Source of the DNA: Cenarchaeum symbiosum A
GTDB taxonomy: Archaea; Thermoproteota; Nitrososphaeria; Nitrososphaerales; Nitrosopumilaceae
Length of the DNA stretch: 64,000 bases
Direction of reading: 5' to 3'
Assembly (NCBI GenBank): GCA_000200715.1
Contig: DP000238.1
Location: 1,080,593-1,144,592, forward strand
Under the pieces are notes generated by a model. It was not told the DNA's origin and searched no databases. It saw nothing but the letters and a program-made list of their open reading frames with translations. Shown piece by piece: positions 1,704-62,530 of this stretch. Made by a program: the position numbers and the translations under genes. Numbering within the stretch: the stretch's first letter is position 1; each line of letters starts with the position of its first letter.

Positions 1704-2348
1704 CTAGCTCATGGGGGACGAGATGTCAAAGGTGTATGTTATGGTCAGCGTGTCGCCGTCCCTGAACTGCACGCCGGACGTATCGATGGCGGCAAAGACA
1801 TTCCCGGAGTTGTTGCAGGTAATATCAGCGGTGTTGATGGCATCCCTGGCGCACACAGCGACCGTGTTTATCGGTATGTGGTCGAAGAAATTCGATCCAA
1901 TCTGTACCGTGCCCGAGTTGAAGCCGGAAGTTTCAAAGGGAAAATCTATCGGCCCGATGGTTGCCGTACCGTTTACAATCCCCACCGAGGAGTCGGCCCT
2001 GCAAGTATTACCCGAGGACATCAGAATGGACGAGCGGGGGCCAAGTAAGTTGGCAGATGTTGTCTCGTCGAATGCCTCGTTGGTGGGGCACAGCACGCTG
2101 ACCCTCTGACTGCTTCCAAGCGGGTCTTGGTCGGTGTCAAAGACCGCGTGGAGTATCAGCTCCTCGCCGTCATCCAGCACCTGGTTGTGTATCACCTGGG
2201 ATAGGACTATGCCGCTGGCATCCCTCTGGACTATCTCGGCCATGCCATACATCTGGGCCCCCTCGATTACCTCGCCCTCTGAGGGCATAATGGCAAGCGC
2301 AAGGACTGCTGCCAGGCCTGTTATCACAGCATATCCGCCCAAGTTCAT
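1704..2348 (-). CDS. Secreted or membrane-anchored surface protein, member of a three-copy family
   Basis: The chosen ATG gives 214 residues that begin MNLGGYAVITG followed by a hydrophobic segment, i.e. a signal peptide or N-terminal anchor. The frame is open to 2408, but the extra residues would precede the signal. It shares a layout with the proteins at 50663-51343 and 51991-52665: the motif YGMAE(I/V)VQ just after the anchor, then VIHNQV/VHNRIVDQGEEL, a region with paired cysteines, and a C-terminus ending in a YTFDISS/YTLDLSS strand. The ending suggests a beta-rich extracytoplasmic domain. The function is unknown. Nothing in its neighbourhood points to a pathway. Confidence 0.75.
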   Translation of the reverse strand: MNLGGYAVITGLAAVLALAIMPSEGEVIEGAQMYGMAEIVQRDASGIVLSQVIHNQVLDDGEELILHAVFDTDQDPLGSSQRVSVLCPTNEAFDETTSANLLGPRSSILMSSGNTCRADSSVGIVNGTATIGPIDFPFETSGFNSGTVQIGSNFFDHIPINTVAVCARDAINTADITCNNSGNVFAAIDTSGVQFRDGDTLTITYTFDISSPMS

Positions 2349-12288: not shown

Positions 12289-13173
12289 ATGCGGTATAGT
12301 GATGAGCAGCGTGCCAGGATGGTGGTCCCGGCCATCAGCAGAAAGCACAGCAAGTACGAAATGGAGAGAACCTCGCAGATCAGGCTGCCGGAGAGGCTAA
12401 TCACGACACTGGCAGAGAAAGATATCGAGGTGTTCAGGTTTGAGGATGCCAAGAGGATCCTTCAAGCCGACAGCCCCACCACCTCGCGCGTGCTAGGCGG
12501 CCTGACAAGAAGGCGCCGGGTGGAGAGGATAGAGCGCGGCAAGTACATGTTCGTTCCAGAGCAAGCGGGTCCAGATCAGCACTGGACGGTGGATTCCTGG
12601 ATTGTCGTGCCCCGCCTGATGGAGGAGTGCTATGTGGGGTTTATCACCGCTATGAACTATTGGAACATGACCGACCAGATACCCTACACGGTATTCGTGG
12701 CTAGCACCAAGGCAAAGCGGAGGTTTGACTTTGGGTACATGAGATACCAGTTTGTAAAATTGTCGGAGAGAAAGTTCTTTGGCGGCGTGGAGCGCAAGTG
12801 CGGTAAAGAGACCTTTATGATCTCCTCCAGGGAGAAGACCATAGTGGACGGGCTGATGCATCCAGAGTATTCTGGCGGAATGAGCGAGGTCTCGAAGGCA
12901 ATGGGGGAGGAATGTGACAACATTGACTGGCAGGCCGTCCTTGGAATGGCGGATAGGGTAAAGATGAACGTGGTCCTCAAGCGCCTGGGATACCTGCTGT
13001 CCATACTGGAGATGGAAGAGGATATATGCAAAAAGATCAAAAAGATGATCAAAAAGTACCCCTACCAGCGCTTTGACAAGCTTGGGGCCTACATCACTTC
13101 CACGCATTCAAAGGAGTACGGCCTGCTGCTAAACTATGCTAAAGAGGATCTGCTGCGCTGGATGGAGTTCTGA
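12289..13173 (+). CDS. AbiEi-type antitoxin / transcriptional repressor, module 1
   Basis: 294 residues. The N-terminal winged helix-turn-helix (about 25-80: PERLI..EVFRFEDAKRIL..RRVERIERGKYMFVP) is followed by the AbiEi C-terminal domain (YVGFITAMNYWNMTDQIPYTVFVAST and SSREKTIVDGLMHPEYSGG). In known AbiE type IV systems this protein represses its own operon and counteracts the AbiEii nucleotidyltransferase without binding it. It is the most diverged of four copies here (others at 13942, 15749, 17462). Its stop overlaps the next ATG (TGATG), but the AbiEii partner is broken. Confidence 0.85.
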   Translation: MRYSDEQRARMVVPAISRKHSKYEMERTSQIRLPERLITTLAEKDIEVFRFEDAKRILQADSPTTSRVLGGLTRRRRVERIERGKYMFVPEQAGPDQHWTVDSWIVVPRLMEECYVGFITAMNYWNMTDQIPYTVFVASTKAKRRFDFGYMRYQFVKLSERKFFGGVERKCGKETFMISSREKTIVDGLMHPEYSGGMSEVSKAMGEECDNIDWQAVLGMADRVKMNVVLKRLGYLLSILEMEEDICKKIKKMIKKYPYQRFDKLGAYITSTHSKEYGLLLNYAKEDLLRWMEF

Positions 13174-13778
13174 TGTATAAAAAGACCATCCAGAGCCTTG
13201 CCAGAAAAAACAACATACCGCAGAGGACGTCGCAGGGAATTTTATGGGTTATCTAAGATAGAACATTGGCGGTCTGAACATCAATTTTTTTAAAACCCTC
13301 CCCAAGGGGGGAACAGATGTTGGCTCTAGTTTTAAGGTCATGTACAATGGCATCACCACCGGCAGATCTGTCATCAACGTGGACATGAGTGAGAGACAAC
13401 ATGATGACGAAACAGCACATCAGGCCAATATTCCAATATTACGAAGACGTTCCTGTCCCCGGCAGCATTCCCGTTATGACACTCGAGGAGATCATGGCCG
13501 AGAAGGTCAGCGCTGTGGTTTATTCCTCCCACGCAAGGCACGTATACGATATCTCGTTTCTACACGACCGCGGGGTACGGATCAATCCGGACATGGTGAG
13601 GGCCAAGATAAGGGGCCTGTACGAGCATGAGTTCGAGCCAGACGTGTTTATTGCCAAAATGCATGAGAAGAAAAAGGAGTGGATTGACAGCCTGCAGCCG
13701 TTCCTACCACGCGGTATGGTGACCTTTGATTCCATCGCAGGCAGGGTCCAGAATATAGTCATGGATGCCATGGACTAG
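13173..13778 (+). pseudogene. Broken AbiEii toxin, module 1
   Basis: The frame starting at ATG 13173 has the family N-terminus (TIQSLARKNNIPQ) but ends at TAA 13256. Homology resumes from about 13260 and runs in shifted frames to 13778 (YEDVPVPGSIPVMTLEEIMAEKVSAVVYSSHARHVYD..). The segment that should hold the nucleotidyltransferase motif KGGT..SEDLDF is deleted, so the remnant cannot be active. The C-terminal half from about 13389 is still open. Confidence 0.8.
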
Positions 13779-13857
13779 GGCCATCTAGGCATCTCTCCCA
13801 GGTGCAGGTCGCATCTGGGGTTGATGAACTTTCAATGCGTATTGTGTTAGTAGGATT

Positions 13858-13877
13858 TTGTATGTTTCATTATACAA
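13858..13877. promoter_or_regulatory. Palindromic operator, AbiE module 2
   Basis: TTGTAT-N8-ATACAA, a perfect 6-bp inverted repeat, 65 bases before ATG 13942. It lies upstream of the TATA box ATATATATAC (13911-13920). The same element precedes modules 3 and 4, so it is the likely binding site of AbiEi. Confidence 0.6.
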
Positions 13878-13941
13878 TAATCATTATATTATGCTTATAG
13901 ATAATATGCAATATATATACGAGTAATGGCAACATCGCCCC

Positions 13942-14826
13942 ATGCGGTATAGCAACGATCAGCGCGCCCGGATGACGGTTCCGGCCATCAGCAAAAAGCA
14001 CGGCAGATACGAGGTAGAACGGATAGGGGAGATCAAACCGGCCGAGAGGCTGGTTTTAGAGCTGGCTGAAAAGAATATCGAGATATTCAGGCTTGAGGAT
14101 GCCAGACGGATCCTGCAGGCCGACGGCCCCACCACCTCGCGCGTGCTAAGATACCTGGCCGGAAAGCGCAGGGTTGAGCGGATAGAGCGGGGCAAGTACA
14201 TGTTCATCCCGGAACACGCGGGCACGGACCTGCGGTGGACTGTTGATGCTATACAGGTGGTGCCCCATCTGATGGATGACTGCTACATGGGGTTCTGCAG
14301 CGCCATGAGCTACTGGGACATGACCGACCAGATACCCTACACGGTATTCGTGGTCAGCACCAAGATGAAGCGGGGGTTTGACTTTGGGTACATGAGATAC
14401 CGGTTCGTAAAGCTGTCCAAGAAAAAGTTCTTTGGCAGCGTAGAGCTCAAATACAAAAAAGGCACTTTCAGGATCTCCTCAAGGGAGAAGACCATAGTGG
14501 ATGGACTAATGCATCCGGAGTACTGTGGTATGATGCCGGAGGTCTCAAAAGCGATGTGGAATGTGCGTGACGATGTTGACTGGGAGGATGTACTCGATAT
14601 GGCGAGGAAGACAGGGATCAACGTAGTCCTCAAGCGCCTGGGATACATGCTATCCACACTGGAAATAGAAGATGGAATAACTGGAAAGATCAAAAGGTTG
14701 ATCAAGAGGTATCCCTACCAGCACTTTGACAATCTGGGTAGACATGTCGAACATCTGTGCTCAAAAGAATACGGTCTTATGCTCAACTATACACAGAGGG
14801 ATCTGCTGCGCTGGATGGAGTTCTGA
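13942..14826 (+). CDS. AbiEi-type antitoxin / transcriptional repressor, module 2
   Basis: 294 residues, the same length and order as the other three copies: winged helix (about 25-80), then FCSAMSYWDMTDQIPYTVFV and SSREKTIVDGLMHPEYCG. The start is supported by a TATA box 27 nt upstream. The stop overlaps the ATG of an intact AbiEii (TGATG), the usual tight coupling in this operon type. Expected roles: autorepression through the palindrome at 13858-13877 and neutralisation of the toxin's effect. Confidence 0.88.
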   Translation: MRYSNDQRARMTVPAISKKHGRYEVERIGEIKPAERLVLELAEKNIEIFRLEDARRILQADGPTTSRVLRYLAGKRRVERIERGKYMFIPEHAGTDLRWTVDAIQVVPHLMDDCYMGFCSAMSYWDMTDQIPYTVFVVSTKMKRGFDFGYMRYRFVKLSKKKFFGSVELKYKKGTFRISSREKTIVDGLMHPEYCGMMPEVSKAMWNVRDDVDWEDVLDMARKTGINVVLKRLGYMLSTLEIEDGITGKIKRLIKRYPYQHFDNLGRHVEHLCSKEYGLMLNYTQRDLLRWMEF

Positions 14827-15590
14827 TGGACGCCAGAACCATCCAGAGCCTGGCGGCAAAAAACCGCATACCGCGCGGGACTCTCGAGAAGGACTATACC
14901 CTGTCAAGCCTGCTGTCAATCATAGCCGACTTTCCCGGGATAGACAAGATTGTGTTCAAGGGGGGAACATCGGTAAAAAAGATGTTCTTTAGGGATTTCA
15001 GGTATTCTGAAGACCTCGACTTTAACGGCCTGGAGGATGTGACAGAGGATCTAATTGAACACCTAAGGGGCAACATGGGGGGGCTGAACGTGGACTTTAC
15101 CGAGATCATTCCAAAGGACAGGACGCGGGTGAGCGCCAGCTTCAGGGTCATGTACAAGAGCGTCAACGGGACAAGGTCAAGTGTAAACGTGGATATGAGC
15201 ATGAGAATGAACCTGATGATGAAACCGCAGACTAGGGAGATGCTGACCGACTATGAGGATCTTCCCGGCCCCTACCATATCCCCGTAATGGACCTGGAAG
15301 AGATCATGGCCGAAAAGATCAGCGCCGTGACCTACTCCGCCCATGCCAGGCACGTATATGACGTCTGGTTCCTGCACGAGCACGGGGTGAAAATCAGGCC
15401 CGAGATGGCAAAGGAAAAGATAATCACCGTGCACGGGGAAAAGTTCGAGCTTGAAAAGTTCATGGACGGGGTGGACAAAAAGAGGGGAAACTGGGTAGAC
15501 GGCCTGCGGCAGTATATGCCTCACGGCATGCCGTCCTTTGAGGATATCTCGGAAAAGGTCCGGGGGATAGTCACGGATGCCATGGGCTAG
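14826..15590 (+). CDS. AbiEii-type nucleotidyltransferase toxin, module 2 (intact)
   Basis: 254 residues from the ATG overlapping the AbiEi stop. It has the DNA polymerase beta-like nucleotidyltransferase core: FKGGTSVKK (about 44-52), RYSEDLDF (59-66, the metal-binding Asp pair) and a second conserved block EEIMAEKISAVTYSAHARHVYDVWFLH. AbiEii toxins transfer nucleotides to RNA targets (tRNA for characterised relatives) and stop growth, which limits phage spread. It is one of two intact toxins in the array. The stop is followed by a short spacer and then module 3. Confidence 0.85.
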   Translation: MDARTIQSLAAKNRIPRGTLEKDYTLSSLLSIIADFPGIDKIVFKGGTSVKKMFFRDFRYSEDLDFNGLEDVTEDLIEHLRGNMGGLNVDFTEIIPKDRTRVSASFRVMYKSVNGTRSSVNVDMSMRMNLMMKPQTREMLTDYEDLPGPYHIPVMDLEEIMAEKISAVTYSAHARHVYDVWFLHEHGVKIRPEMAKEKIITVHGEKFELEKFMDGVDKKRGNWVDGLRQYMPHGMPSFEDISEKVRGIVTDAMG

Positions 15591-15664
15591 TACCATCCAG
15601 ACGGCACTCCCGTGTACAGATCGCGTCGGGGTTTGACGAGCTTTCAGTGTGTGCTGGTAGGATT

Positions 15665-15684
15665 TTGTATGTTTCATTATACAA
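15665..15684. promoter_or_regulatory. Palindromic operator, AbiE module 3
   Basis: TTGTAT-N8-ATACAA, identical in arms and spacer length to the module 2 site, 64 bases before ATG 15749. It is followed by the TATA box GATATATATAC (15717-15727). Confidence 0.6.
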
Positions 15685-15748
15685 TAGTTATTATATCAGA
15701 CTTTTAGATGATATATGATATATATACGAATAATGGGAATATTGCTTC

Positions 15749-16633
15749 ATGTGGTTTAACGGCGACCGGCGCCTCCGGATAGCAGTCCCTGCCATCAGCA
15801 AAAAGCATAGTAGGTACGAGGTAGAACAGACAGGAGAGATCAGACCCCACGAGAGGCTCGTCCGGGAGCTGGCCGAGAAGAAGATCGAGGTGTTCAGATC
15901 TGAAGATGCAAAAAGGATACTACAGGCCGACGGCCCCACCACCGCTCGTGTGCTCAGATACCTAGCCAGAAAGCGCAGGGTCGAGCGGATAGAGCGGGGC
16001 AAGTACATGTTCATCCCGGAATACGCGGGTACGGACCTGCGGTGGACCGTCGATTCCAGACAGGTGGTCTCCCACCTGATGGATGACTGTTACATGGGGT
16101 TCTGCAGTGCAATGAGCTACTGGGGCATGACCGACCAGATACCCTATACGGTATTCGTAGTCAGCACCAAGATGAAGCGGGGGTTTGACTTTGGGTACAT
16201 GAGATACCAGTTCGTAAAGCTGTCCGAGAAAAAGTTCTTTGGCGGCGTCGAGCGCAAATGCGAGAATGGCACATTTAGGATCTCCTCAAGGGAGAAGACC
16301 ATAGTGGACGGGCTGATGCATCCTGAATACTGCGGGATGATGACGGAGGTCTCAAAAATGATGTGGAATGCACATGAAGACGTCAACTGGGAGGATGTCC
16401 TCAATATGGCAAAGAGGGTGGGAATAGACGTGGTCCTCAAACGCCTGGGATATCTGCTGTCCGTGCTGGAGATAGAAGAGGGTATGGCCAAAAAAATCAG
16501 GGGCATGATCAAGAGGTATCCCTACCAGCGCTTGGACAAGCTGGGGTGCCATGTCGGGCATACATATTCAAAAGAGTACGGCCTTATGATCAACTATAGG
16601 GAAGGAGAACTGTTGGACTGGATGAAGTATTGA
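15749..16633 (+). CDS. AbiEi-type antitoxin / transcriptional repressor, module 3
   Basis: 294 residues and very close to module 4 over most of its length (shared KKIEVFRSEDAKRILQADGPTT and VNWEDVLNMAKRVGIDVVLKRLGYLLSVLEIEEG). This implies recent duplication. Winged helix plus AbiEi C-terminal domain as in the other copies. The stop overlaps the start of a toxin gene that is now broken, so this intact antitoxin has no partner of its own. Confidence 0.87.
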   Translation: MWFNGDRRLRIAVPAISKKHSRYEVEQTGEIRPHERLVRELAEKKIEVFRSEDAKRILQADGPTTARVLRYLARKRRVERIERGKYMFIPEYAGTDLRWTVDSRQVVSHLMDDCYMGFCSAMSYWGMTDQIPYTVFVVSTKMKRGFDFGYMRYQFVKLSEKKFFGGVERKCENGTFRISSREKTIVDGLMHPEYCGMMTEVSKMMWNAHEDVNWEDVLNMAKRVGIDVVLKRLGYLLSVLEIEEGMAKKIRGMIKRYPYQRLDKLGCHVGHTYSKEYGLMINYREGELLDWMKY

Positions 16634-17071
16634 TGGATGTCAGAACCATCTAGCCTCTCGCCAAAAAACCGCATACCGCGCGGGACCGTCGAAATGTACT
16701 ATGCCCCGGCAAGCCTGCTGTCCTGCATAGTCGACTTCCCCAGTATAGAAAAGATTGTGTTCAAGGGCGGCACATCGGTAAAGAAGACGTTCTTTAGGGA
16801 TTTCAGGTATTCCAAAGATCTCGACTTTAACGGCCTGTAGATGTAACCGAATCTAATGGACTACCCAAGGTGCAGTATGGAAGGATTAAGCGCGGATTTT
16901 ACCGAGATCATCCCAAAGGACAGGATGCCAGTAAGCGCCAGTTTCAGGGTCATGTACAACAGCGTCAACGGGGTTAGGTCGAGTGTCAACGTGGACATGA
17001 GAAAGAGTGTGGTGGCGAGGCGGCAGACCAAGGAGATGCCGACCCATTGCGAGGACCTCTCTGTCACCTAG
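16633..17071 (+). pseudogene. Broken AbiEii toxin, module 3
   Basis: ATG 16633 opens MDVRTI and meets TAG at once, where the intact copy continues QSLA. A small deletion accounts for this. Further on, VFKGGTSVKKTFFRDFRYSKDLDF is readable, with the SED motif changed to SKD. A stop and frameshifts follow, then DFTEIIPKDRMPVSASFRVMYNSVNG. Homology ends near TAG 17071, so the C-terminal third is missing. Confidence 0.8.
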
Positions 17072-17461
17072 CTGATCTGCCCGGAATAGGACCCTGTTAA
17101 AAAAATGCGCCCGATAGTCGTTCTGGGCTCACTCGACTCGGTCCACCTACTCTACAGCCTTCAAGAATTTCAAAGTGTTAAGAGCCCTGCCCCGACACGT
17201 GTGTTTAGCCCCCGCGTGATCTTTTACAGCACCGTCCGGTTGTGACTTGTATGTTTTATTATACGATAATACTTGTAATAAGAATCAATGTGCATTATAT
17301 CATACATCTCAGTACATTGTACGTTCATTATCAGAGTGATTCTCCCGATGTACTTCCAATAGCGTGCTGAGAAGATCTCGTATATTTCATTATACAATAA
17401 TTATTATATTAGACTTATAGGTGATATATGAGATATATGCGAGTAATGGCAATATTGCCTT
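17072..17461. promoter_or_regulatory. Spacer with two palindromic operators before AbiE module 4
   Basis: Two copies of the array operator lie here: TTGTAT-N8-ATACGA at 17247-17266 and TCGTAT-N8-ATACAA at 17378-17397. The second is in the usual place before ATG 17462, with TATA box GATATATGC. The first is 131 bp further upstream and has no gene behind it, so it may mark a deleted module. Bases 17095-17180 resemble part of the IS66-like remnant near 46020 (shared GCCCAGAACGAC on the minus strand). No gene is supported. Confidence 0.5.
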
Positions 17462-18346
17462 ATGCGGTATAGCAACGACCAGCGTGCCAGGATGACGGTC
17501 CCGGCCATCAGCAAAAAGCACAGCCAGTACGAGGCGAAACGGGTAGGGGAGATCAGACTCCCCGAGAGACTCATCTTGGAGCTGGCCGAGAAGAAGATCG
17601 AGGTGTTCAGATCTGAAGATGCAAAAAGGATACTACAGGCCGACGGCCCCACCACCACGCGCGTGCTCAGATATCTGGCCGGAAAGCGCAGGGTCGAGCG
17701 GATAGAGCGGGGCAAGTACATGTTCATCCCGGAACACGCGGGTGCGGACCTGCAATGGACCGTCGATTCCACGCAGGTGGTCTCCCACCTGATGGATGAC
17801 TGTTACATGGGGTTCTGCAGTGCAATGAGCTACTGGGGCATGACCGACCAGATACCCTATACGGTATTCGTAGTCAGCACCAAGATGAAGCGGGGGTTTG
17901 ACTTTGGGTACATGAGATACCGGTTCGTAAAGCTGTCCAAGAAAAAGTTCTTTGGCGGCGTCGAGCGCAAATGCGAGAATGGCACATTTAAGATCTCCTC
18001 AAGGGAAAAGACCATAGTGGACGGGCTGATGCATCCTGAATACTGCGGGATGATGACTGAAGTCTCAAAAATGATGTGGAATGCACATGAAGACGTCAAC
18101 TGGCAGGATGTCCTCAATATGGCAAAGAGGGTGGGAATAGACGTGGTCCTCAAACGCCTGGGATATCTGCTGTCCGTGCTGGAAATAGAAGAGGGTATGG
18201 CCAAAAAAATAAGTGGCATGATCAAAAAGTATCCATATCAGCGCCTGGACAAGCGTGGAATTTATTCTGGGCACACATATTCAAAAGAGTACGGCCTTAT
18301 AATCAACTATAGAAATAGGGAACTGTTGGACTGGATGGACTATTGA
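17462..18346 (+). CDS. AbiEi-type antitoxin / transcriptional repressor, module 4
   Basis: 294 residues with the winged helix and AbiEi C-terminal domain in the same positions as the other copies. Near-identical to module 3 from about residue 45 to 250, and it diverges at the C-terminus. Its TGA overlaps the ATG of an intact toxin. Promoter and operator are as described for the spacer upstream. Predicted autoregulated repressor and antitoxin of a type IV system. Confidence 0.88.
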   Translation: MRYSNDQRARMTVPAISKKHSQYEAKRVGEIRLPERLILELAEKKIEVFRSEDAKRILQADGPTTTRVLRYLAGKRRVERIERGKYMFIPEHAGADLQWTVDSTQVVSHLMDDCYMGFCSAMSYWGMTDQIPYTVFVVSTKMKRGFDFGYMRYRFVKLSKKKFFGGVERKCENGTFKISSREKTIVDGLMHPEYCGMMTEVSKMMWNAHEDVNWQDVLNMAKRVGIDVVLKRLGYLLSVLEIEEGMAKKISGMIKKYPYQRLDKRGIYSGHTYSKEYGLIINYRNRELLDWMDY

Positions 18347-19188
18347 TGGATGCACTATCCATTCGTCGCATTGCATTAAAAAAGAATCTGCCCAGAGGAG
18401 TCATAGAAAGAGATTATGTGTTAACAAACCTGTTATCTGTCATGGTCGATTTTCCCAAAATCGACAAGATGGTGTTCAAGGGCGGCACGTCGCTAAAGAA
18501 GGCGTACTTTGAGGATTTTAGATATTCCGAGGATCTTGACTTTGGTTGTTTGGAAGACGTCTCGGAGGAGTTCAAGGACTATTTGAGGCACAGTATAAGA
18601 AAGCTGGATGTGGATTTTGCCGAGATCAAGCCAAACAAAAGGAAGGGCAAATCCAGCTTCAAGATCATGTACAATAGCATCTTCAGGAGGGCAGGTGCTG
18701 ACGCAGATACAAGCGCAGGCGGCAGGCTGGGTGTTGACATAGACATGAACTTGAGCGGCAGCGTGATCATCGACCCGCAGAACAAGCAACTGCTCGATCA
18801 TTATCCGGAATTTCCCGGACCGTACAGCATGCCCACAATGAGTCTAGAGGAGACCATGGCCGAGAAGGTATCTGCCTTGACACACTCCCGCCATGCCAGA
18901 CATTTGTATGATGTGGTGTTTCTGCACAGCCGTGGCGTGCCAATCAACATGGACATGGTCAATACCAAGACAAAATCAGAATATGAGGAAGATTTTGATT
19001 TAGACAAACTTACGACCAGAATATACGAAAAGAAAGTCGGCTGGGCGGGCGGCCTGAAACCATTCATACCGCACAGCGTGCCGGATTTTGATGATACCGT
19101 GAATTATATCCTGAAGGCGGTCAAGGAGGCTATGAACGAAGCCCCGAGCGGCCGCCCGGCAGCAGGCCCGCCGAGCGCGCCCCGATGA
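18346..19188 (+). CDS. AbiEii-type nucleotidyltransferase toxin, module 4 (intact, divergent)
   Basis: 280 residues from the ATG overlapping the antitoxin stop (a TTG one codon earlier is possible). Conserved motifs: FKGGTSLKKAYF and RYSEDLDFG near residues 44-67, then EETMAEKVSALTHSRHARHLYDVVFLH. It is clearly more diverged from module 2 than the antitoxins are from each other. It carries an insertion before GVDIDMNLSG and a Pro/Ala-rich tail. The last 59 bases overlap the end of the convergent permease gene. It is the second functional-looking toxin of the array. Confidence 0.85.
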   Translation: MDALSIRRIALKKNLPRGVIERDYVLTNLLSVMVDFPKIDKMVFKGGTSLKKAYFEDFRYSEDLDFGCLEDVSEEFKDYLRHSIRKLDVDFAEIKPNKRKGKSSFKIMYNSIFRRAGADADTSAGGRLGVDIDMNLSGSVIIDPQNKQLLDHYPEFPGPYSMPTMSLEETMAEKVSALTHSRHARHLYDVVFLHSRGVPINMDMVNTKTKSEYEEDFDLDKLTTRIYEKKVGWAGGLKPFIPHSVPDFDDTVNYILKAVKEAMNEAPSGRPAAGPPSAPR

Positions 19189-49780: not shown

Positions 49781-50610
49781 GCACCTGTTCGGTAGTTCCA
49801 CGCCAGCGGCCCCATGACACCTCTCCCGTCGAAGTGCTCATAACTGTCTTTTTCCCCGCCCCTTGGATACTTGCTAACTTTTCACCCACCGTACAGCCGC
49901 GGCCCTTCTGTCCGCAGTTGCAGGCGGCATCACCCTGCGACATGGTGCCTTTTCCAGCATCCCAAAACATGCCTCCCCCCTGACATGCCCCAGTCATTCC
50001 AGGTCCCCCGGCCGTGAGAACATCCTGTTCTGTCGTCGCGCCTTTTCTGCCCTGCATTCAGTCATGACCATGCCGGGCCCCGTCTCTTCGGCCGGAACGG
50101 CATGTTTGCCGGGAGGAAAGGGATTGCACCGCATCCACAATGCGGGGCCGGGGCGGCTGGCGCTCTTTGCGTCCCTTGGAGTACGGGGTGTCACAGGGGG
50201 GCTCCGGCTTATCATGCACGGCCCTTGCGCTAGAAGCTAGGTCCAGAATGCCATGGAAGGGCATGCCCAGACTCCAGTAGTGCCGGCAAGGGGCCCGGCA
50301 TGCGGCCCACGCCTGAAGACTACGATAAGAGGGCACCACGGATCCTGGATAACCATTGTCACTAATGCCACAGTTAATGACTCACTACGAATATGGAGAA
50401 TAATGACTGTACGCGTGCAGCCCCAGGGGGCTGACCCGGGCCAGAGCCCTGTAGTCGTGCTTTTGCGCCGGGGCGGCCGGCACTAAGAAGCATATACGAC
50501 TGGCTGCTCTCCAAGAAGGACTCGGATGGTTTTTGAAAGGACGGCAGGGCCATTCAGAGATACTATGGGCACCCTGACGGAAATGTCGACTTTCAATCAT
50601 GGCTGCGCCG
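49781..50610. other. GC-rich gap with decayed fragments
   Basis: No intact gene. A minus-strand stretch near 49850-49960 reads FWDAGKGTMSQGDAACNCGQKGRGCTVGEK, which has a Cys cluster reminiscent of small metal-binding proteins but no credible boundaries. AATAATGACTGTAC at 50399-50412 recurs at 51598-51611. A plus-strand fragment near 50490-50650 (YDWLLSKKDSDG, DFQSWLRRMQQSAASYRRK) looks like a broken gene. Confidence 0.35.
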
Positions 50611-51376
50611 GATGCAGCAAAGTGCCGCGTCATATAGAAGAAAAAAGTCAAAAACTGAGATACTAGCTATCGTCAGACGAGAGGTCCAGTGTGTAGGTTA
50701 CCCGGTAGCTGTCGCCGCCTACCACCGTTTGACTAGCGGGCAAGGCTACCGCAGCCAGTATGCCATCGCCTAGTGAACTACAATACCGAACCGCACCCGT
50801 GGACACCTCTGCATGACAGATCCAGACAGCATCGAAGTGAGGAGTACCAAAATCGGTAGCGTTCGAGAGGTCAGCTCCTGCTCCTGCTAAGAATGTAGTA
50901 CCTATTGTTGCAGAACCATTCCCATGTTTAGTCACCGTATCGACCGCCTTACACGGATTATCACTGTTTGCAAGGTCCGAGGCTCCGTCGTCTAATTCAC
51001 TGTTAAGGTGGGTAAGCTCTTCGCCTGTGGCAGCAGTAATCCTAGTCGGATTGAAACTGTCACTATCACTAAGACAGATTACGCCAAACTTGCCAACAAA
51101 CGGATCGCCTGTATCAAACAGTGCATCAAACATGAGCTCCTCGCCTTGATCAACTATGCGGTTATGGACTGACTGGGATGATTTTACCTCCCCGTCGGGG
51201 CCCGTCTGGACTACCTCGGCCATCCCATAGAATGCAGGACCCTGCGGGGCCGTATCTGTTGTAGGAACCATCATGAGGACGACTATGGCCGCTAGGCTGG
51301 CTGCCGCACCCGTTGCAATGTTTCGTGATGTTTTTGTGTTCATGGAATCGACCCTTTCTCGGTATTTTATATGTCT
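50611..51376. repeat. Left arm of a ~770-bp inverted duplication
   Basis: Begins GATGCAGCAAAGTGCCGCG and ends in the promoter GGTATTTTATATGTCT. It matches the reverse complement of 51957-52730, including the surface-protein gene, its promoter and about 50 bases beyond its stop. Confidence 0.75.
50663..51343 (-). CDS. Membrane-anchored surface protein (226 aa), copy in left inverted arm
   Basis: N-terminus MNTKTSRNIATGAAASLAAIVVLMMVPTTDT is a signal anchor. The exported part starts YGMAEVVQTGPDGEV and VHNRIVDQGEEL, has four Cys (VICLS, NPCKA, WICHA, RYCSS) that could form two disulfides, and ends YTLDLSSDDS. The N-terminal 75 residues are nearly identical to the copy at 51991-52665, while the middle differs strongly, as expected for surface-exposed variation. 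TATA box at about 51364-51372. Related to 1704-2348. Function unknown. Confidence 0.8.
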   Translation of the reverse strand: MNTKTSRNIATGAAASLAAIVVLMMVPTTDTAPQGPAFYGMAEVVQTGPDGEVKSSQSVHNRIVDQGEELMFDALFDTGDPFVGKFGVICLSDSDSFNPTRITAATGEELTHLNSELDDGASDLANSDNPCKAVDTVTKHGNGSATIGTTFLAGAGADLSNATDFGTPHFDAVWICHAEVSTGAVRYCSSLGDGILAAVALPASQTVVGGDSYRVTYTLDLSSDDS

Positions 51377-51956
51377 GTTCGGACGTTTTGCCGAGCTTTT
51401 TCTTTTATGGCATTTGGTAATGGTTTGGAGTTAAACTGGACAGACATGTCACTTCGAGCGGGATTTATTTGATTGCAAGGATGGTTAACGTTCTTTGCAT
51501 CTTGGGCCGACTAGGATGCGTACAGAAACGAGACATAAAAAATGGCCAGAGGGACGCTGTCGAGCTTTGCAGGTAATTTGTAGAGACCTCATAACGAATA
51601 ATGACTGTACACATGTTAGCCCCCTCAGAATGGCTGAACAACAAGGGTTGCAGGGGGTAAATTCCGGTCTGTCAGAATCGGCTTTGCATATTCCTGCCGC
51701 CCATGACGGCCACCGGGCGAGGGCGGACAACAACCCCCGGCCAGGGCACCTGTCCCTCACTGGCCATCTGCCAGATGCCCCATGACCGGGCCGGTTCCAT
51801 GCGCCGCATGCGGGCTCCCGGGGACCGGATGCAGGGCCTGGGAGGGCCACATTTGGCCGGCGGACCACAGGTCATGGATTTTCTCCCTGAGGTGCGATCA
51901 GGGCCTCAGCCGGGGCAGTCTTTGTTCCGGGCGATTCACGGCAGAACAGGGTTAAA
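51377..51956. other. Unique spacer between the inverted arms
   Basis: 580 bases without a supported gene. Contains the second AATAATGACTGTAC (51598-51611). The two TATA boxes of the divergent surface-protein genes lie at its edges. Confidence 0.4.
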
Positions 51957-52730
51957 AAGACATATAAAATACCGAGAAAGGTGCGATTCCATGAACACAA
52001 AAACATCACGAAACATTGCAACGGGTGCGATAGCCGGCCTTGCGGCCATAGTCGTCCTCATGATGGTTCCTACAACAGATACTGCTCCACAAGGTCCCGC
52101 ATTCTACGGGATGGCAGAGGTCGTCCAGATGGGCTCCGACGGGGAGGTATTATCATCCCAGACTGTCCATAACCGCATAGTCGACCAGGGCGAGGAGCTC
52201 ATGCTTGATGCATTGTTTGACACCGGCGTTACCTTCGACAAGTTCAACGTAATCTGCCTTGGCGATGATGTCGCGATGGCCATTATTGATGATGATGTTA
52301 CGGGCGAGGCACTTGACGCTGATGACCACTTCATAGACACGAGCACGGCATTTGGCGGCAGTAGCCAGCCATGCAAGACGGTCGAGAACGTGGAGAGACT
52401 CAATGACGGCAATGCCACATTATCTGCCACATTTGAAGCAGCGCGCGATCTTCAGGTCGGTTCTGCTTTTAACAGCGTCTGGGTTTGTAATGCCCAGTCC
52501 GCTGATGCGGATGAAGCTTGCAGTTCGGATTTTGATGGTGGCGGTAGTGGTGCCGGCGGCGATGGCATACTGGCCGTGGTAGGATTGCCCACTGCTCAAT
52601 CCATAGAAGCCGACAGCAACTACTCGGTAACTTACACACTGGACCTCTCCTCTGACATGAGCTAGTATCTCAGTTTTTGACTTTTTTTCTTTTTTGTGGC
52701 GCGGCACTTTGCTGCATCCGGTACGGGGGT
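51957..52730. repeat. Right arm of a ~770-bp inverted duplication
   Basis: Starts AGACATATAAAATACCGAGAAAGG (promoter) and ends TTTGCTGCATC. Counterpart of 50611-51376 in opposite orientation. Conservation is highest at both ends of the gene and lowest in its middle. Confidence 0.75.
51991..52665 (+). CDS. Membrane-anchored surface protein (224 aa), copy in right inverted arm
   Basis: ATG 51991 lies 26 nt from TATA box CATATAAAAT. An upstream in-frame extension to 51703 would cross this promoter and is rejected. Same plan as the left-arm copy: anchor (residues 8-30), YGMAEVVQMGSDGEV, VHNRIVDQGEEL, four Cys (VICLG, QPCKT, WVCNA, EACSS), a Gly/Asp-rich loop (DGGGSGAGG) and the C-terminal YTLDLSSDMS. 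Probably displayed outside the membrane. A role in adhesion or host contact would be conjecture. Confidence 0.8.
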   Translation: MNTKTSRNIATGAIAGLAAIVVLMMVPTTDTAPQGPAFYGMAEVVQMGSDGEVLSSQTVHNRIVDQGEELMLDALFDTGVTFDKFNVICLGDDVAMAIIDDDVTGEALDADDHFIDTSTAFGGSSQPCKTVENVERLNDGNATLSATFEAARDLQVGSAFNSVWVCNAQSADADEACSSDFDGGGSGAGGDGILAVVGLPTAQSIEADSNYSVTYTLDLSSDMS

Positions 52731-53520: not shown

Positions 53521-55098
53521 CTATGATCTGTAGATCCGCCGCTGCCGCGATCCGCATGAAGGGCACGCCGTCTCCCCGTGGATGAGCTCGCACGAGATGC
53601 AGCAAAACTCAAGCCCGCCTTCCGGCTCCCGGCCGGCGGGCCCGCGGGAGAACCCCCCACTCTCCGCCCCGGTGCAGGGCACCCCGAGCCTCCGGAGGAT
53701 CTCTTTTGCAGCCTGCAGCTCCGCCCTGATGGAGCCGGGATCGCCCCCGTCGACGATCTCCGCAAACCGGCTGAATACGTTTATCCTGCCTGACGCCTTT
53801 GCATACTCCTCCCGGAAGTTCTCGGGGTAGAGCTCCGCCTGCTTTTCGTATGAATCCCCGCGCTTGTGCCCTATCACGTGGTCCGCCACGTCGGGCCGGC
53901 ACCCGGCTGCTATGAGGGTTGACTTTAACAGGTCCCTGAACTCGTGGCTGTCCACCCGGTACATCTTTCTTCCATTGACGACCGCGTGCTCGGTAAGCCC
54001 GGATCTCTCGCACAGCGACCGGAATGAATGGTACAGCCACCGCTCCGTTATCGGCCCGCCCTTTTTGTTTATGAACAGGGGCCCGCCCTCCCCCACGGGC
54101 CCCCTGACCCGCAGATAGTCCTGTATCGCGGATATGGCATCCCTGTCCAGGAACCCCGTGTGCTCGAAATCTGTCTTGACCCGGGCCAGCTTGATGGGCA
54201 CGGGGCACAGGCCCGGGTCCCACAGCTGGGGGTTCTCACTCTGAAAGTATTCGACAAGCTGCGGCATGGCCTCATAGTTGAACCGGTCTGTGAGGGTTGA
54301 GACGTCAAGGCCCCTGTGCCACTTGGATAGAAACACTGCCTTCTCCAGAAGAGACGGCCCGCCGGTGGTCATCAGGGCCATCACGTCCTTTATGGACATG
54401 CTCTGCTCGTGGTTGGTCTTTTGATGGTTGGATTTGGGGTTAAAGTAGAGCTGGAGGGGCTGGCCGTTGAGCTTGAAATACGACTGTATCGCGGCCATGT
54501 AGAGCCTCATGTACGAGAGGCTCTTGCCCTCGTGCCGGCCATCGGCGAGAAAGTCCGTCACTATTGCGGCTGCAGCCTTGCCGTCGACAAGCGGATTCTT
54601 GGTCATGTTGAGGAGCTGCTCGACGTTTGCAAATGACTCGCTGGCCGGGGCGGACTCCAGGCCCCCGGCCCCCTGCCGGAGGCCCCATACCTCAAACGTC
54701 CGCCCGTTGATCCATTTGTTGAAATCGCACACCCTCAGCAGGTACTGCCTTCTAGTCGACGAGATGTTTTTGCTGTGCTCGTGCCTGGAGCCGCGCAGCT
54801 GCCTTGTCCAGCGGGCGATTGACGGCAGGGTGGTAAAGCCGAGCGGCGCGGTGCATCCGCGCCGCCTTGCCACCACGCCGTGCCGGAAGCCCCTGTTGAG
54901 CGCCCCCTCGACGGCTTCGCGCACCCCGTCCCCGTGCTTTTCGGCCAGCTGGTCCCCGAACACGTCTAGTATCTCGTCTACGGTGGCCTGCCCGTCCTCG
55001 GGTATGCGCCCCAGAATGTCTGCATCGTCCTGCCGGGGCATCCCCGATGCGTCCTTTATGCGGGTGTACACGTGGGCCATGCCAGCCGGCGCACCCAT
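53521..55098 (-). CDS. Tyrosine recombinase / integrase with C-terminal zinc ribbon
   Basis: 525 residues. ATG 55098 is 25 nt from TATA-like CGGTATATTCC (55118-55128). An N-terminal region of about 100 residues (EDGQATVDEILDVFGDQL) precedes a core-binding domain (STRRQYLLRVCDFNKWING) and the catalytic domain. Catalytic residues visible are Arg in KWHRGLDVSTL, His-x-x-Arg in SHEFRDLLKSTLIAAG, His in DHVIGHKRG and the nucleophile Tyr in QAELYPENF. It ends in a Cys4 ribbon (CCISC..CPSCGSR). It would integrate or excise a mobile element. A decayed second copy at 62090-62530 lies on the far side of the type III R-M operon. Confidence 0.88.
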   Translation of the reverse strand: MGAPAGMAHVYTRIKDASGMPRQDDADILGRIPEDGQATVDEILDVFGDQLAEKHGDGVREAVEGALNRGFRHGVVARRRGCTAPLGFTTLPSIARWTRQLRGSRHEHSKNISSTRRQYLLRVCDFNKWINGRTFEVWGLRQGAGGLESAPASESFANVEQLLNMTKNPLVDGKAAAAIVTDFLADGRHEGKSLSYMRLYMAAIQSYFKLNGQPLQLYFNPKSNHQKTNHEQSMSIKDVMALMTTGGPSLLEKAVFLSKWHRGLDVSTLTDRFNYEAMPQLVEYFQSENPQLWDPGLCPVPIKLARVKTDFEHTGFLDRDAISAIQDYLRVRGPVGEGGPLFINKKGGPITERWLYHSFRSLCERSGLTEHAVVNGRKMYRVDSHEFRDLLKSTLIAAGCRPDVADHVIGHKRGDSYEKQAELYPENFREEYAKASGRINVFSRFAEIVDGGDPGSIRAELQAAKEILRRLGVPCTGAESGGFSRGPAGREPEGGLEFCCISCELIHGETACPSCGSRQRRIYRS

Positions 55099-56636: not shown

Positions 56637-59135
56637 TCAGGTCTTGGATCTCTTACGGGATGCGCGTCTGTGATTCTCAGCTCTAATTTTTTCACCCTCT
56701 TGTCTTACATCTCTGTCCATTATCATCTCAAACTCCCCTTCCATTGAACCGTCGTTTATGCTCACTATACCATACTTGTTCATGGAACCTTCCAACACTT
56801 CTAATACGTCTTTTTTGTAGGCACTGTCGGGATTATCCAGATGTGTTCCCTTTATCTCATACACCCGGAACAACTGTTTCTCGCCGTCTGTTCCAGACAT
56901 GGCTATGAAATCGGGAAATATCCTGTCCCGTTTCCAGCCCCGCAGGTAGTATTCACCGCGCCCCCTTGCCGCCACACGGTGCCACCATTTCAATGATTCA
57001 GTCTCGTCCAAATAACATGCAAACTGTGTCTCGCTGTCACTGTCAAACTGGTCCTCATACATGGGGTCAAAGAGGTTCCTCTGCATGAGTTTTCCATCTT
57101 CCCTTATCTGCGGTTTAGGCTTGTCATCCAACGGTATATCATATGTATCCTTGAAACAAAATGTTCCATCAGACACTTCCAAATTGAAGCGTATTGTTCC
57201 TGCCTTGGTTTTTTTACGGAATATATCCTCTGCATTTCCAGCCACTATTTCATTTACATGGTCTCTTACCACCTCTATTATGCGGTCCCTCATTCGGAAT
57301 ATCTCGGGCTCGGTACGGCCAATCCTTTTCAGCGAACGCAACACGTCGGACATAATTCTGGCCGCCTGCCAGGGGTTTGGTATCTCGTCAGATATTCCCT
57401 GCACAAGGTCGAAAAGTGATACAACCCTTCCGTCCTTCCATGTATCTGCATCCTCAGAGATATGCTCGTTTTCTAGGCCCACTATATCAGTTTGTGCCAG
57501 GCTGGAAGGCTCCATGTCCTTTAATATTTTTTTACTCGGAGCGCCTATGCTATTCCAGTCTATCTCAGCTAGTATGTGCCGGTCATAGTCAAGCTCGGTC
57601 CATGACCTGCCGTTACTGTGTGTTACTTTGGGCAGGCATATGGGCCTGTTTACAGTAGGTCTTATTGATATCCGGCCTGTGCCGCGGCTATTCTCAGTGT
57701 GTATCTGACCAGATATGCCATTAAGTCCGCCGTCCTCCAGGGCAGACTTTACGTAACCGACTATCTTTCCACTGTCCACCATCCTGCAGTATACATAACA
57801 CCGATCCAGTTCTTGATTCTCCGTGTTCTTCTGGTTAGGCTGCCGGAGCACCCTTCCAAGCATCTGAGTCATGGTAGTCTTGCTGGTAAGATTGTCCAAT
57901 ATTACAAGAACATACGCGAACGGGCAGTCCCAGCCCTCCTGAAGAGCACTCTTTGTTATGATATACCGGATGGGGCAGGTGCCCGACATGAGGTCACTGT
58001 CCTTGAGGCCGTCGTTTTCATGTGATTTGATTGCTATCTCTTGTTCTGGAACAAGTGTTTTCATGTACTCCCTCACGTCATCTGCATGTATGTATCCGGC
58101 GTTACGCTGGTCTTTTCCCGTGCGTTCCACACGTATTAGCATTATAGGTCTTATGTAACGTTTTTCCTCCTTGTCAGCTTCGTCCTGTAAATCACATAGC
58201 TTCTCATATGCATCTTTGAGGATATTTTTCCAGCCCACACTGTTTCTCTTTGTTGTTATCTTTATCGGGAGCTTTAGCATCTCTTCCTTGTCCATGTCCT
58301 TTCCGGACACGTTGACCAGTATGTTACTTCTCTCCCCCACGGGGGTGGCCGAGAATTCTAATACCATACGAGGATTTAGGTCTTCCACGTATGATACTAT
58401 CTTATCCCGTACGTCAGGCCGAGTCTTGGTCTTGTGGGACTCGTCCAGTATGACTACCGGGCGTGACAGTCTAATTACGTTTGCCAAGCTTTGGACTGGT
58501 ATTTCACTAACCCGATTTTTTGCCAGTGTGGGATTCATGGCTAGGAATTTTTCATTTACAGGGTCGTCTGCAGGTGGAAAGAAACTGAGATAAGAGCCAG
58601 AATCGCGGTGTAGTTTTAGAAACGTCTCATCATTCATTGCAGTAGACTGTTTCATGAGGATGAGGATACATAACTGGTTCTCCACATCCTGCCTATTCAA
58701 TCGGTCGTTCTTTTCAAGTATTTTGACGGCGTTGCCGCTTGCAATGTCCAGTTCCTTGCGTATGAGACTCTTTTTATCATTCAGTTGTAAAAGTGTCTGT
58801 TTGTATATCGCATTGCTTATGACCATCCACACAACCAGCCCAGTGGAATATCCCATGCGCCTTATGGCTGCTGCTGCCATGAGAGTCTTGCCACCGCCTG
58901 TAGGCACTTTGAAACATATGTTCGGTATTGGTTTTTGTACACCGTTCTTCATGCTAACATATCTTGCATCCTCATCACCCATAATCTCTTTCCATGTGCG
59001 GCGCGGATAGTCCTCCATGCCAGGTATGTTATCATTTTTAAGTTTGGTGCTCACATCTGCCTGTTCTTTGAGTTTAACATACCATTCTTCAAATCTACCG
59101 AGTGCGACCCTTTGATATTCCTTTAACGTCATCAT
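56637..59135 (-). CDS. res: Type III restriction enzyme, Res subunit
   Basis: 832 residues. Superfamily 2 helicase motifs: PTGGGKT (78-84), DESHK, SATPVG, and QMLGRVLRQP (motif VI). The C-terminal nuclease domain has the PD-(D/E)xK motif, IFPDFIA..YEIKGTH. With Mod it forms a complex that uses ATP to move along DNA and cuts near pairs of unmethylated sites. Its start overlaps the end of mod by four bases. Moderately AT-rich relative to the core genes. All key motifs are present, so it should be active. Confidence 0.93.
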   Translation of the reverse strand: MMTLKEYQRVALGRFEEWYVKLKEQADVSTKLKNDNIPGMEDYPRRTWKEIMGDEDARYVSMKNGVQKPIPNICFKVPTGGGKTLMAAAAIRRMGYSTGLVVWMVISNAIYKQTLLQLNDKKSLIRKELDIASGNAVKILEKNDRLNRQDVENQLCILILMKQSTAMNDETFLKLHRDSGSYLSFFPPADDPVNEKFLAMNPTLAKNRVSEIPVQSLANVIRLSRPVVILDESHKTKTRPDVRDKIVSYVEDLNPRMVLEFSATPVGERSNILVNVSGKDMDKEEMLKLPIKITTKRNSVGWKNILKDAYEKLCDLQDEADKEEKRYIRPIMLIRVERTGKDQRNAGYIHADDVREYMKTLVPEQEIAIKSHENDGLKDSDLMSGTCPIRYIITKSALQEGWDCPFAYVLVILDNLTSKTTMTQMLGRVLRQPNQKNTENQELDRCYVYCRMVDSGKIVGYVKSALEDGGLNGISGQIHTENSRGTGRISIRPTVNRPICLPKVTHSNGRSWTELDYDRHILAEIDWNSIGAPSKKILKDMEPSSLAQTDIVGLENEHISEDADTWKDGRVVSLFDLVQGISDEIPNPWQAARIMSDVLRSLKRIGRTEPEIFRMRDRIIEVVRDHVNEIVAGNAEDIFRKKTKAGTIRFNLEVSDGTFCFKDTYDIPLDDKPKPQIREDGKLMQRNLFDPMYEDQFDSDSETQFACYLDETESLKWWHRVAARGRGEYYLRGWKRDRIFPDFIAMSGTDGEKQLFRVYEIKGTHLDNPDSAYKKDVLEVLEGSMNKYGIVSINDGSMEGEFEMIMDRDVRQEGEKIRAENHRRASRKRSKT

Positions 59136-60829
59136 CCACCATCCACCGGATATGGTATCCTTGAAAATTCTATCTTTCTCTTTGCAAGGTCCAGCTGTGA
59201 CATGTTTGCATCAGGTGCGAAGACCACTGCGTTCCTTCCCCTTTTTTCTATCTTCTTTATCCGTCCTTCTGTCAACGTGCAATCATTTCCTCTTAACATT
59301 TCCACATTGGGTGTGTACAACAGATAATAATCGGTGTCGACGTCCTTGTAAAATAGACTGCTTGCTGTCTGTTCTATACGAATACCGTCAGTGGGTATAC
59401 CAACCTTGTATAATAGATAGGCTGCCAGATTCTTGTACTCAGGCAGATCTCCTTTTAGCATTTTTTCCTTATCCATTGCCTTCCCCAATGTATAATATGT
59501 AAACGAGCCTCCAAGGCCCTTTTTGAGGTTGTCATCATTGACACCGGGTACGCCCTTGATAACCCTGCGAACACGTTCAGCGGTTATTTTGTCAGCATAG
59601 TCTTCTAGTTCAACTAGTATAAACCTGCGGTTTCCTCCATCTTCTTTGTTTAATTCAAGCACGGCTTGAGCGGTGGTTCCGGAGCCTGCGAATGAGTCCA
59701 GTATTATGCCGTCGGACGGGGTTACCATGCTGATCAAATCCTTTATCACAGATACATCCTTGGGGTTTTCAAATTCATTATACGACAGTATTTTATCTAG
59801 CATCTGCTTTGCTGCCCGTCTGTCCTTGTATATGACACTCGCCATAACCTTTGACTCTGTTTCATGTAGATATCTCTTGATCTTGGGCACTGTCGTCTCA
59901 TCATCCCCAAAGTGAATTCGATTATCGGCAATCTGCTGTTCCATGACATTTTTATCCGGATTAAGCCACCCCCTCACAGGTACTTTGACAGGTTTTTTCG
60001 TTATAGGATGTATGACTTCATAGTCAGGGCCCCCTCCACCCGGCCAAGAGATGTCACCTGGAAAATATAATCCCCTCTTGTCAACTTCGTTGTAATGTCT
60101 GTGTTTAAACGCCGGATCGTTCTTTGGAAGTGATTTGTACCATGTTTTTAATTCTGAAGAGATTTTTCTGTAATTGTCCTTGTATTGTTTTCTCAAATGT
60201 TCCACCTGTTTGTATATCTTGTCAATTCCATCTTTTTTATGTCTCCAGCGAGTGCCTTTATCACTCAATAGAGATTTCTTCTTTGAATAGCACAATATGT
60301 AATCATGGGATACGGAAAAATATTTTGAATCATTTTTCAAACCACCTTCCCAGACACAAGTTGCAATGAAATTGTCTTCTCCAAACATGTCATCCATCAT
60401 AACCCTGAGATGATGATATTCGTTGTCATCTATCGATATGAATATTATTCCATCATCCGTTAAAAGTTCCTTTAGTATTTGCAGTCTGGGCCACATCATA
60501 CAAAGCCACTTTTCATGTCGGGACATATCTTCTATCCCAATTTCCTTATTCAGCCATGATTTAAACACTGGATGGTCCACGTTATCCGTGTATTTCCAAT
60601 TATTACTTCCTGTATTGTAAGGTGGGTCGATATAGATACAGTTTATTCTACTGCGGTAGTTAGGTAGAAGGGACTTTAGTGCATCAAGATTGTTCCCATG
60701 AATTATCATATTGTCGGAGTCTTTCTGGGGATTGTAGGATTTTTTCATATCCCGTAATAAGGCCCTAGGTGGCACTTTCAGGTGATGTGCGTGTATGATT
60801 TCTTTGCCTTGGAATACAAGCTCGACCAA
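59132..60829 (-). CDS. mod: Type III DNA methyltransferase, Mod subunit
   Basis: 565 residues from TTG 60829, preceded by a strong ribosome-binding stretch (GAGGAGAAG). Motif IV YIDPPYNTG (67-74) precedes motif I LDSFAGSGTTAQAVLELN, the beta-class order of type III N6-adenine methyltransferases. The segment between (target recognition, with KWLCMMWPRL and FISIDDNEYHHL) is of normal size. It methylates one strand of an asymmetric site and gives Res its specificity. First gene of the operon. Confidence 0.93.
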   Translation of the reverse strand: MVELVFQGKEIIHAHHLKVPPRALLRDMKKSYNPQKDSDNMIIHGNNLDALKSLLPNYRSRINCIYIDPPYNTGSNNWKYTDNVDHPVFKSWLNKEIGIEDMSRHEKWLCMMWPRLQILKELLTDDGIIFISIDDNEYHHLRVMMDDMFGEDNFIATCVWEGGLKNDSKYFSVSHDYILCYSKKKSLLSDKGTRWRHKKDGIDKIYKQVEHLRKQYKDNYRKISSELKTWYKSLPKNDPAFKHRHYNEVDKRGLYFPGDISWPGGGGPDYEVIHPITKKPVKVPVRGWLNPDKNVMEQQIADNRIHFGDDETTVPKIKRYLHETESKVMASVIYKDRRAAKQMLDKILSYNEFENPKDVSVIKDLISMVTPSDGIILDSFAGSGTTAQAVLELNKEDGGNRRFILVELEDYADKITAERVRRVIKGVPGVNDDNLKKGLGGSFTYYTLGKAMDKEKMLKGDLPEYKNLAAYLLYKVGIPTDGIRIEQTASSLFYKDVDTDYYLLYTPNVEMLRGNDCTLTEGRIKKIEKRGRNAVVFAPDANMSQLDLAKRKIEFSRIPYPVDGG

Positions 60830-62089: not shown

Positions 62090-62530
62090 CTCTACTGTTC
62101 TCCCCGGTTTGAGATCATCCATGGCCGGGCCAGTCCACTGGGCTCTCTTGCAGGATGCATCTAGCTTGAGGCGCCCTGCGGCCTTTAGCTTCTGGGGATA
62201 GTCCCCCGGGTTTGTGCGAGTCCAGCCGGCATATCCTACTGCCCCTGACTGCCGCGTGCAGAGCTGGGCCTTGTTGACAAGGGACTGGAACAGGCACCTC
62301 ATGGTTATGGGCCGGCCTTGTTGACAAACGGGGTCTCGTCTTTCCCCATTGTTCCCCGGGACAGCAGATAGTCCTGTAGAGCCGATATGACGTACAGGTC
62401 TAAAAACCCCGCGTGGAGAAAGTCTTTACGCGGACTGGGGATATTGGGACCGGTCCAGATCCCGCAGGGGTGCGAGTCCGTCACGAAATACTTGGCTAGC
62501 CGCCCCCTCGGAATAGTTGAAGCGGTCTAG
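62090..62530 (-). pseudogene. Relic of the tyrosine recombinase
   Basis: Minus-strand fragments in shifting frames follow the intact integrase at 53521-55098 in order: LDRFNYSEGA, then RGFLDLYVISALQDYLLSRG, TPFVNKAGPITMRCLFQSL and a degraded NPGDYPQKLKAAG for the HEFRD..AAG block. Only the central to C-terminal catalytic region remains, with a stop after about 62400 and lost catalytic residues. Confidence 0.8.

Follow-up and report, generated by a model that had tools for sequence, protein, structure and literature searches.

The inverted gene pair described here is one local duplication within a dispersed, lineage-specific family of about 35 copies in Cenarchaeum symbiosum A. Our explanation, to which as a whole we give about an even chance of being right, is that the family encodes fibre-like modules for export, each with a scaffold that is conserved and a face that varies, and that amplification made of them a repertoire sharing one partner. 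What was presented as a "duplicated gene pair" is replaced by a family with a size, a partner gene and a variable face. The pair lies in a stretch of 64,000 nucleotides, the window, to which all coordinates refer unless given as genome positions or in kb.

The inverted gene pair

The earlier note on this DNA described an inverted duplication carrying full divergent genes with their promoters and downstream flanks. Arm-to-arm alignment bears this out, each gene having its own TATA box and T-run. The features are as follows:

50608..51379, left inverted arm: gene 1 with promoter and 3' flank (arm-to-arm alignment)
50633..50662, minus strand, T-run past the gene 1 stop, terminator-like
50663..51343, minus strand, family gene 1, 226 aa, with Sec-like N-terminus and variable middle
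51364..51371, minus strand, TATA box of gene 1, TATAAAAT
51380..51954, inter-arm spacer with no assigned gene, carrying one copy of the 13-nt motif ATAATGACTGTAC
51955..52721, right inverted arm: gene 2 with promoter and 3' flank (arm-to-arm alignment)
51963..51970, plus strand, TATA box of gene 2, TATAAAAT
51991..52665, plus strand, family gene 2, 224 aa, ~61% identical to gene 1
52666..52695, plus strand, T-run past the gene 2 stop, terminator-like
1707..2348, minus strand, third family member in the window, 214 aa

The arms are complementary in three ungapped blocks, of 281 nt at 89% (5'), 130 nt at 82% and 39 nt at 90% (3'), and BLASTN of the region against its own genome gave E values of 7e-105 for the 5' block and 8e-40 for the 3' block, far beyond chance. 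Indels interrupt the middle of the arms (~325 nt), where blocks of 60 columns are 43-61% identical; what is seen is a duplicated gene that has diverged rather than a clean inverted repeat. The first ~79 residues of gene 1 and its C-terminal strand are conserved, and the two proteins share 72/79 residues at the start, 37/101 in the middle and 19/32 at the end, as expected from the earlier description of nearly identical first ~75 residues and a strongly different middle. In both genes TATAAAAT begins 28 nt upstream of the ATG; for gene 2 the start is an internal ATG of a 320-aa ORF, taken 28 nt past the start of the TATA box. The motif ATAATGACTGTAC occurs exactly and in direct orientation at 50400-50412, outside the left arm, and at 51598-51610, in the spacer (two matches against 0.03 expected, for a motif picked after being noticed).

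Downstream of gene 2, at 53521-55098, lies a tyrosine recombinase gene with high GC3 (0.81). Its relatives are a full-length paralogue, 43% identical, at genome 148359-149705 and a short fragment at 62308-62505, neither of them beside another family member; spread of the family by this recombinase was rejected, the paralogue near 148 kb and the window fragment being its only other copies. Two further gene groups were seen in the window. Near the pair, at 56637-60829, are genes for a type III restriction enzyme and methyltransferase, both low in G+C (0.46 and 0.41), and at 12289-19188 four similar 294-aa ORFs (pairwise 199-257/294 identical) have AbiEii-like ORFs between them. Three of these four ORFs were scanned and all three match AbiEi, so that the stretch is apparently a tandem array of AbiE modules.

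Size and distribution of the family

The genome of C. symbiosum A is one contig of 2,045,086 bases, in which a search with the gene 1 protein found 35 places. A profile built from 30 standard members gave 44 matches. Besides the 30 standard genes, these comprise four long forms, one truncated copy, a degenerate copy (near 716 kb) and a pair of short C-terminal fragments, of which one is weak. Many copies are dispersed and some are clustered, for example at 1531-1538 kb. The third relative reported in the window does exist, with 36% identity to gene 1, but it is not the only other one: it is one of ~35 copies and not the closest to the pair, its own closest paralogue in the tree lying at genome 1765155-1765802. 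Counts over 34 genes given below refer to a set from which the 206-aa truncated copy and one duplicate ORF row were left out, and in which one long form has no ATG at the chosen start. The alignment (A1), the codon test and the tree use the 30 standard members, with the long forms set aside; these four (L028, L025) are proteins of 302-484 aa with large insertions between conserved ends.

Outside C. symbiosum A the family is sparse. In a survey of the taxonomic family, 10 of 250 genomes have a member at E ≤ 1e-10, C. symbiosum A included (9/249 others), and no other genome showed more than two copies among the best candidates scored (up to 12 per genome). A smaller sample gave matches at E ≤ 0.001 in 19/151 genomes, 12 of them weak. 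The same-genus genome G001 has a single member, with 19/19 candidates scored. In a FastTree phylogeny that left out the members of G108 and G347, the 30 standard copies split with support 0.97 from eight members of seven other genomes, G001 included, a topology that fits an expansion in the C. symbiosum lineage after its split from G001. The G108 member (L037) is split over two ORFs, by a frameshift or a sequencing error. A 358-aa ORF at L064 and L092 matches the family over its first ~130 residues and not over the remainder, representing a fusion or an assembly join; the G347 member is a 358-aa ORF matching over its first part only.

Protein features and promoters

Viewed by eye, the family proteins begin with positive charges and continue in a hydrophobic stretch, which in many copies ends in an A-x-A-like site; a strand-rich domain of ~190 residues follows. 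The N-terminus appears Sec-like, making these putative secreted-type proteins. Four cysteines are invariant in 30/30 aligned members. Column entropy is 0.87-1.17 bits in the first two strands and the last strand, against 2.54-2.74 in the middle loops.

A TATA-like site is found at -35..-11 in 26/34 family genes, compared to 2.4% of random 25-mers of the window, and four of the eight genes without one lack it because an upstream Met had been chosen as start. A five-T run follows within 60 nt downstream in 15/34 genes, against a background of 7.5%.

Divergence within the family and gene conversion

The genes of the window pair were compared in three parts: the start (codons 1-79), the middle and the end. 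Silent divergence (pS) is 0.28 (0.16-0.40), 0.58 (0.44-0.73) and 0.23 (0.09-0.40) respectively, and replacement divergence 0.05, 0.41 and 0.27. At unchanged residues the pair uses identical codons in 52/67 cases at the start, 23/36 in the middle and 16/19 at the end, and the comparison of start with middle is not significant (p=0.1). This codon test was applied, one-sided, to 435 pairs, and the best 14 of 435 by N-terminal value were listed. The tandem pair at 1535/1537 kb stands out, with the same codon in 62/66 cases at the start versus 17/32 in the middle (p=5e-6 in this test), and the remaining 421 of the 435 show no general bias (0.464 vs 0.446). The pair formed by gene 1 and the copy at 1536 kb gave p=2.5e-5, which we do not read as conversion because the signal comes from an unusually low middle (2/23). 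A silent gradient is also present in a pair 1.16 Mb apart (pS 0.34 vs 0.76), and absent from the dispersed pair containing the 1707-2348 gene (0.50 vs 0.45).

The gene conversion proposed earlier for the window pair thus has a significant signal behind it in one tandem pair, also of this family, and is only suggestive in the window pair itself. For the tandem pair, conversion of the conserved start is the simplest reading of the codon pattern; for the window pair it is possible, unproven. Replacement of the middle region from another paralogue was rejected: no donor was found, the DNA matches in the genome being short and nearly all in the conserved N-terminal part. The dN/dS of the middle is ~0.5, and its amino-acid change fits relaxed constraint as well as diversification.

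Homology to virion proteins

No Pfam family was found for the three window members, and PADLOC gave no name for the window pair. NCBIfam returned nothing for gene 1 and, for the 30 members, eight stray families with one member each (best E 0.002); judged by these searches, no Pfam or NCBIfam family fits. Against PHROGs the 30 members gave six families (best E 0.0051), including one tail fibre family at 0.007 for one member; direct HMM matches to PHROG 5417 were marginal (2/30 members, best 0.0084).

Profile comparison was more informative. The family aligned by hhalign with four viral-contig proteins at 94.5% (E 7.8e-8, score 53.6); in the controls, 30 column shuffles scored no higher than 15.7 and the reversed profile 14.0. 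It also matches, at 98.2%, the profile of a sister archaeal family (A3), built from 11 of the 12 weak matches in the 151-genome sample, with the short L044 left out; 10/11 members of A3 match PHROG 5417, the best at 3.8e-17. In L068 the gene of the viral homologue comes immediately after that of a major head protein, and in L071 it follows such a gene at a distance of three ORFs; both homologues match a tail fibre PHROG as well. Scanned against viral sequences, A1 yielded a single locus, L067, whose short and weak match was left unused, and tblastn of the gene 1 protein and one sister-family protein against a phage collection gave no match. On the strength of the profile comparison, the family domain is by sequence homologous to fibre and structural proteins of tailed-virus virions.

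Two AlphaFold models of different members, made with the same six sequences, were weak, with mean pLDDT of 58.8 and 53.8. Phage tail, baseplate, neck or fibre chains top the PDB lists of both these low-confidence models, with best Z of 8.1 for the first and 6.6 for the second and all others below 7; unrelated methyltransferase chains reach Z 4.8 in the first model's list. Many BFVD matches are common to both models (27 and 13 at E ≤ 1e-3), and these offer no contrast because BFVD holds viral proteins only. Donor-strand pilins of the TasA/AbpA type did not turn up in the fold lists of these two weak models, which may miss such a fold. A sequence search of the PDB found nothing for the sister family; for the four-cysteine family it gave a single weak lead at the D-G / HN motif, chain U of 26la ("Structural protein", E 0.11). 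The modelled folds alone would not suffice to tie the family to virions.

The surroundings of some copies were also searched. No virion PHROG (E ≤ 0.01) was found in 10 ORFs around the window pair or in 10 around the L065/L066 members, and with 0/10 nearby ORFs matching we rejected a provirus remnant at the window pair; one of its 10 ORFs matches DNA methyltransferase families.

A partner gene

In seven of nine other genomes (G021, G039, G045, G050, G108, G343 and G345) the family member is directly followed downstream by a gene for a protein of ~145 residues with a hydrophobic N-terminal stretch, here called the partner; the partners of G343 and G345 come from outside the set used to build the partner model. 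There is none in G001, at the G347 locus, or beside the second member of G045. C. symbiosum A has one partner, at genome 231495-231866, ~67 kb from the nearest family member and unlinked. Across 151 genomes the partner model gave eight matches at E ≤ 0.01, two weak and six strong, and all the strong ones come from among the seven genomes whose family match is also strong (Fisher p 5e-10); since the genes adjoin in most genomes, this value reflects linkage as much as independent co-occurrence. No PDB chain matched the partner, and Pfam gave three families with 1/5 members each (best BBS7_GAE, 8e-5), matches that we take as stray.

Proposed explanation and alternatives

In the explanation that we favour, the Sec-like N-terminus would export the protein, which would form a strand-rich fibre module, stabilised by disulphides and kept at the cell surface perhaps with the partner's help. 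The N-terminal strand pair, the helix and the last strand would make up the assembly scaffold, and the middle loops an exposed recognition face. In a presumed sponge symbiont such a module could have been duplicated many times while its recognition face diverged, the scaffold ends being homogenised by gene conversion probably at least once. The outcome would be a set of variants sharing one partner, and its likeliest use would be adhesion to, or recognition by, sponge or neighbouring cells. A fuller version is tentative and on balance doubtful, namely that the archaeal symbiont acquired a fibre module from a tailed virus, equipped it with disulphides and a signal for secretion, brought it together with a membrane partner and expanded it to a sponge-contact repertoire of ~35 variants.

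In an alternative reading the copies are non-variable components from which surface filaments or a coat are built, retained either for dosage or because they are specialised, with a middle that drifts under weak constraint; the strongly conserved scaffold with its invariant cysteines and the middle dN/dS, which is below 1, would suit such components, but dosage alone would hardly call for 34 open copies whose middles differ so much, and the large middle insertions of the four long forms also speak against it, leaving this reading a real but minor chance. A role facing viruses, in which the proteins act as decoys, block receptors or remain in the service of a virus or provirus, would make the virion-fibre likeness functional. 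It draws on that homology and on the integrase, type III restriction system and AbiE arrays also present in the window, yet the ORFs around the window pair and the L065/L066 members hold no virion genes by PHROG, the copies are scattered and they have a Sec-like N-terminus; we regard it as unlikely.

Most improbable, to a degree that we would hardly expect it, is a switch by inversion or conversion at the window locus that alternates surface antigens. Inverted arms, the long 5' similarity and the tyrosine recombinase ~0.9 kb from gene 2 speak for it. However, both predicted promoters lie inside the arms, so that inversion of the spacer, or recombination within the arms, would leave both genes expressed, and the earlier proposal of inversion as a route to surface variation fails on this point. 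Other copies of the nearby recombinase are not beside family members, the conversion test of the window pair stayed at p=0.1, and there is no reverse transcriptase for a retroelement switch. With both promoters inside the arms and no dedicated recombinase found linked to them, we rejected an invertible switch, and we also rejected a diversity-generating retroelement: PF00078 (reverse transcriptase) had no match in the genome in a search that matches 3/14 control genomes. What holds of the earlier suggestion is the setting for surface variation, that is, secreted-type proteins with a conserved anchor, a divergent middle and possible conversion; inversion as its switch is not supported.

Related archaea usually hold 0-1 members, so the ~35 copies may form a repertoire used in contact with the host or with other surfaces. 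Should the proteins be displayed at the surface, an archaeon presumed to live with an animal would offer a concrete, testable group of contact proteins, and the family would exemplify the use of a virion fibre module by cells. Surface families confined to one lineage, and virion-like modules in cells, are both familiar; to our knowledge, how archaea recognise animal hosts is largely unknown. Family size, partner gene and variable face are open to comparison in other sponge archaea.

Comparison with known systems

The nearest published counterpart may be arCOG08821, listed in Table 2 of PMC4158269 as "Membrane protein, expanded in Thaumarchaeota", an uncharacterised group with 18 copies in "dark matter islands". 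It may be the same as the fibre-like family; the two were compared by description alone, and the accessible parts of that paper give no fold, partner or virion link. That line aside, the family is not described in the accessible parts of four papers (PMC6697440, PMC7848895, PMC4158269, PMC2222616), and in literature available to the same partial extent we did not find a virion-like module family combined with a partner gene.

Among solved structures, the best match of the first, weak model is the tail of Haloferax tailed virus 1 (PDB 9h4p chain BD, residues 383-511; Z 8.1, rmsd 3.5, 128 aligned), which is one domain of a 953-residue virion chain and is absent from the second model's list. The sister archaeal family A3, recognised by GHxxxxHTDxxGNIxSYxQTDN, resembles the family in length and hydrophobic N-terminus and occurs in 56/201 genomes of the order, C. 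symbiosum A counted. It differs in being without the four-cysteine pattern and in its numbers, with 1-2 matches and at most four per genome outside C. symbiosum A, and strong partner matches are confined to genomes with the four-cysteine family.

In profile and domain order the family resembles PHROG 5417 and the tail fibre/virion structural PHROGs 4176 and 20420 of tailed viruses. The family and the PHROG 5417 group have in common a D-G-turn strand pair, a helix starting with N-x-(V/I)-V-x-x-G, and a closing strand G-D-x-(L/V)-x-V-x-(Y/W)-T. Unlike PHROG 5417 proteins, the family members have no virion genes found beside them at the window pair (10 ORFs), and they are encoded by the cell, in many copies, with a Sec-like N-terminus and four invariant cysteines.
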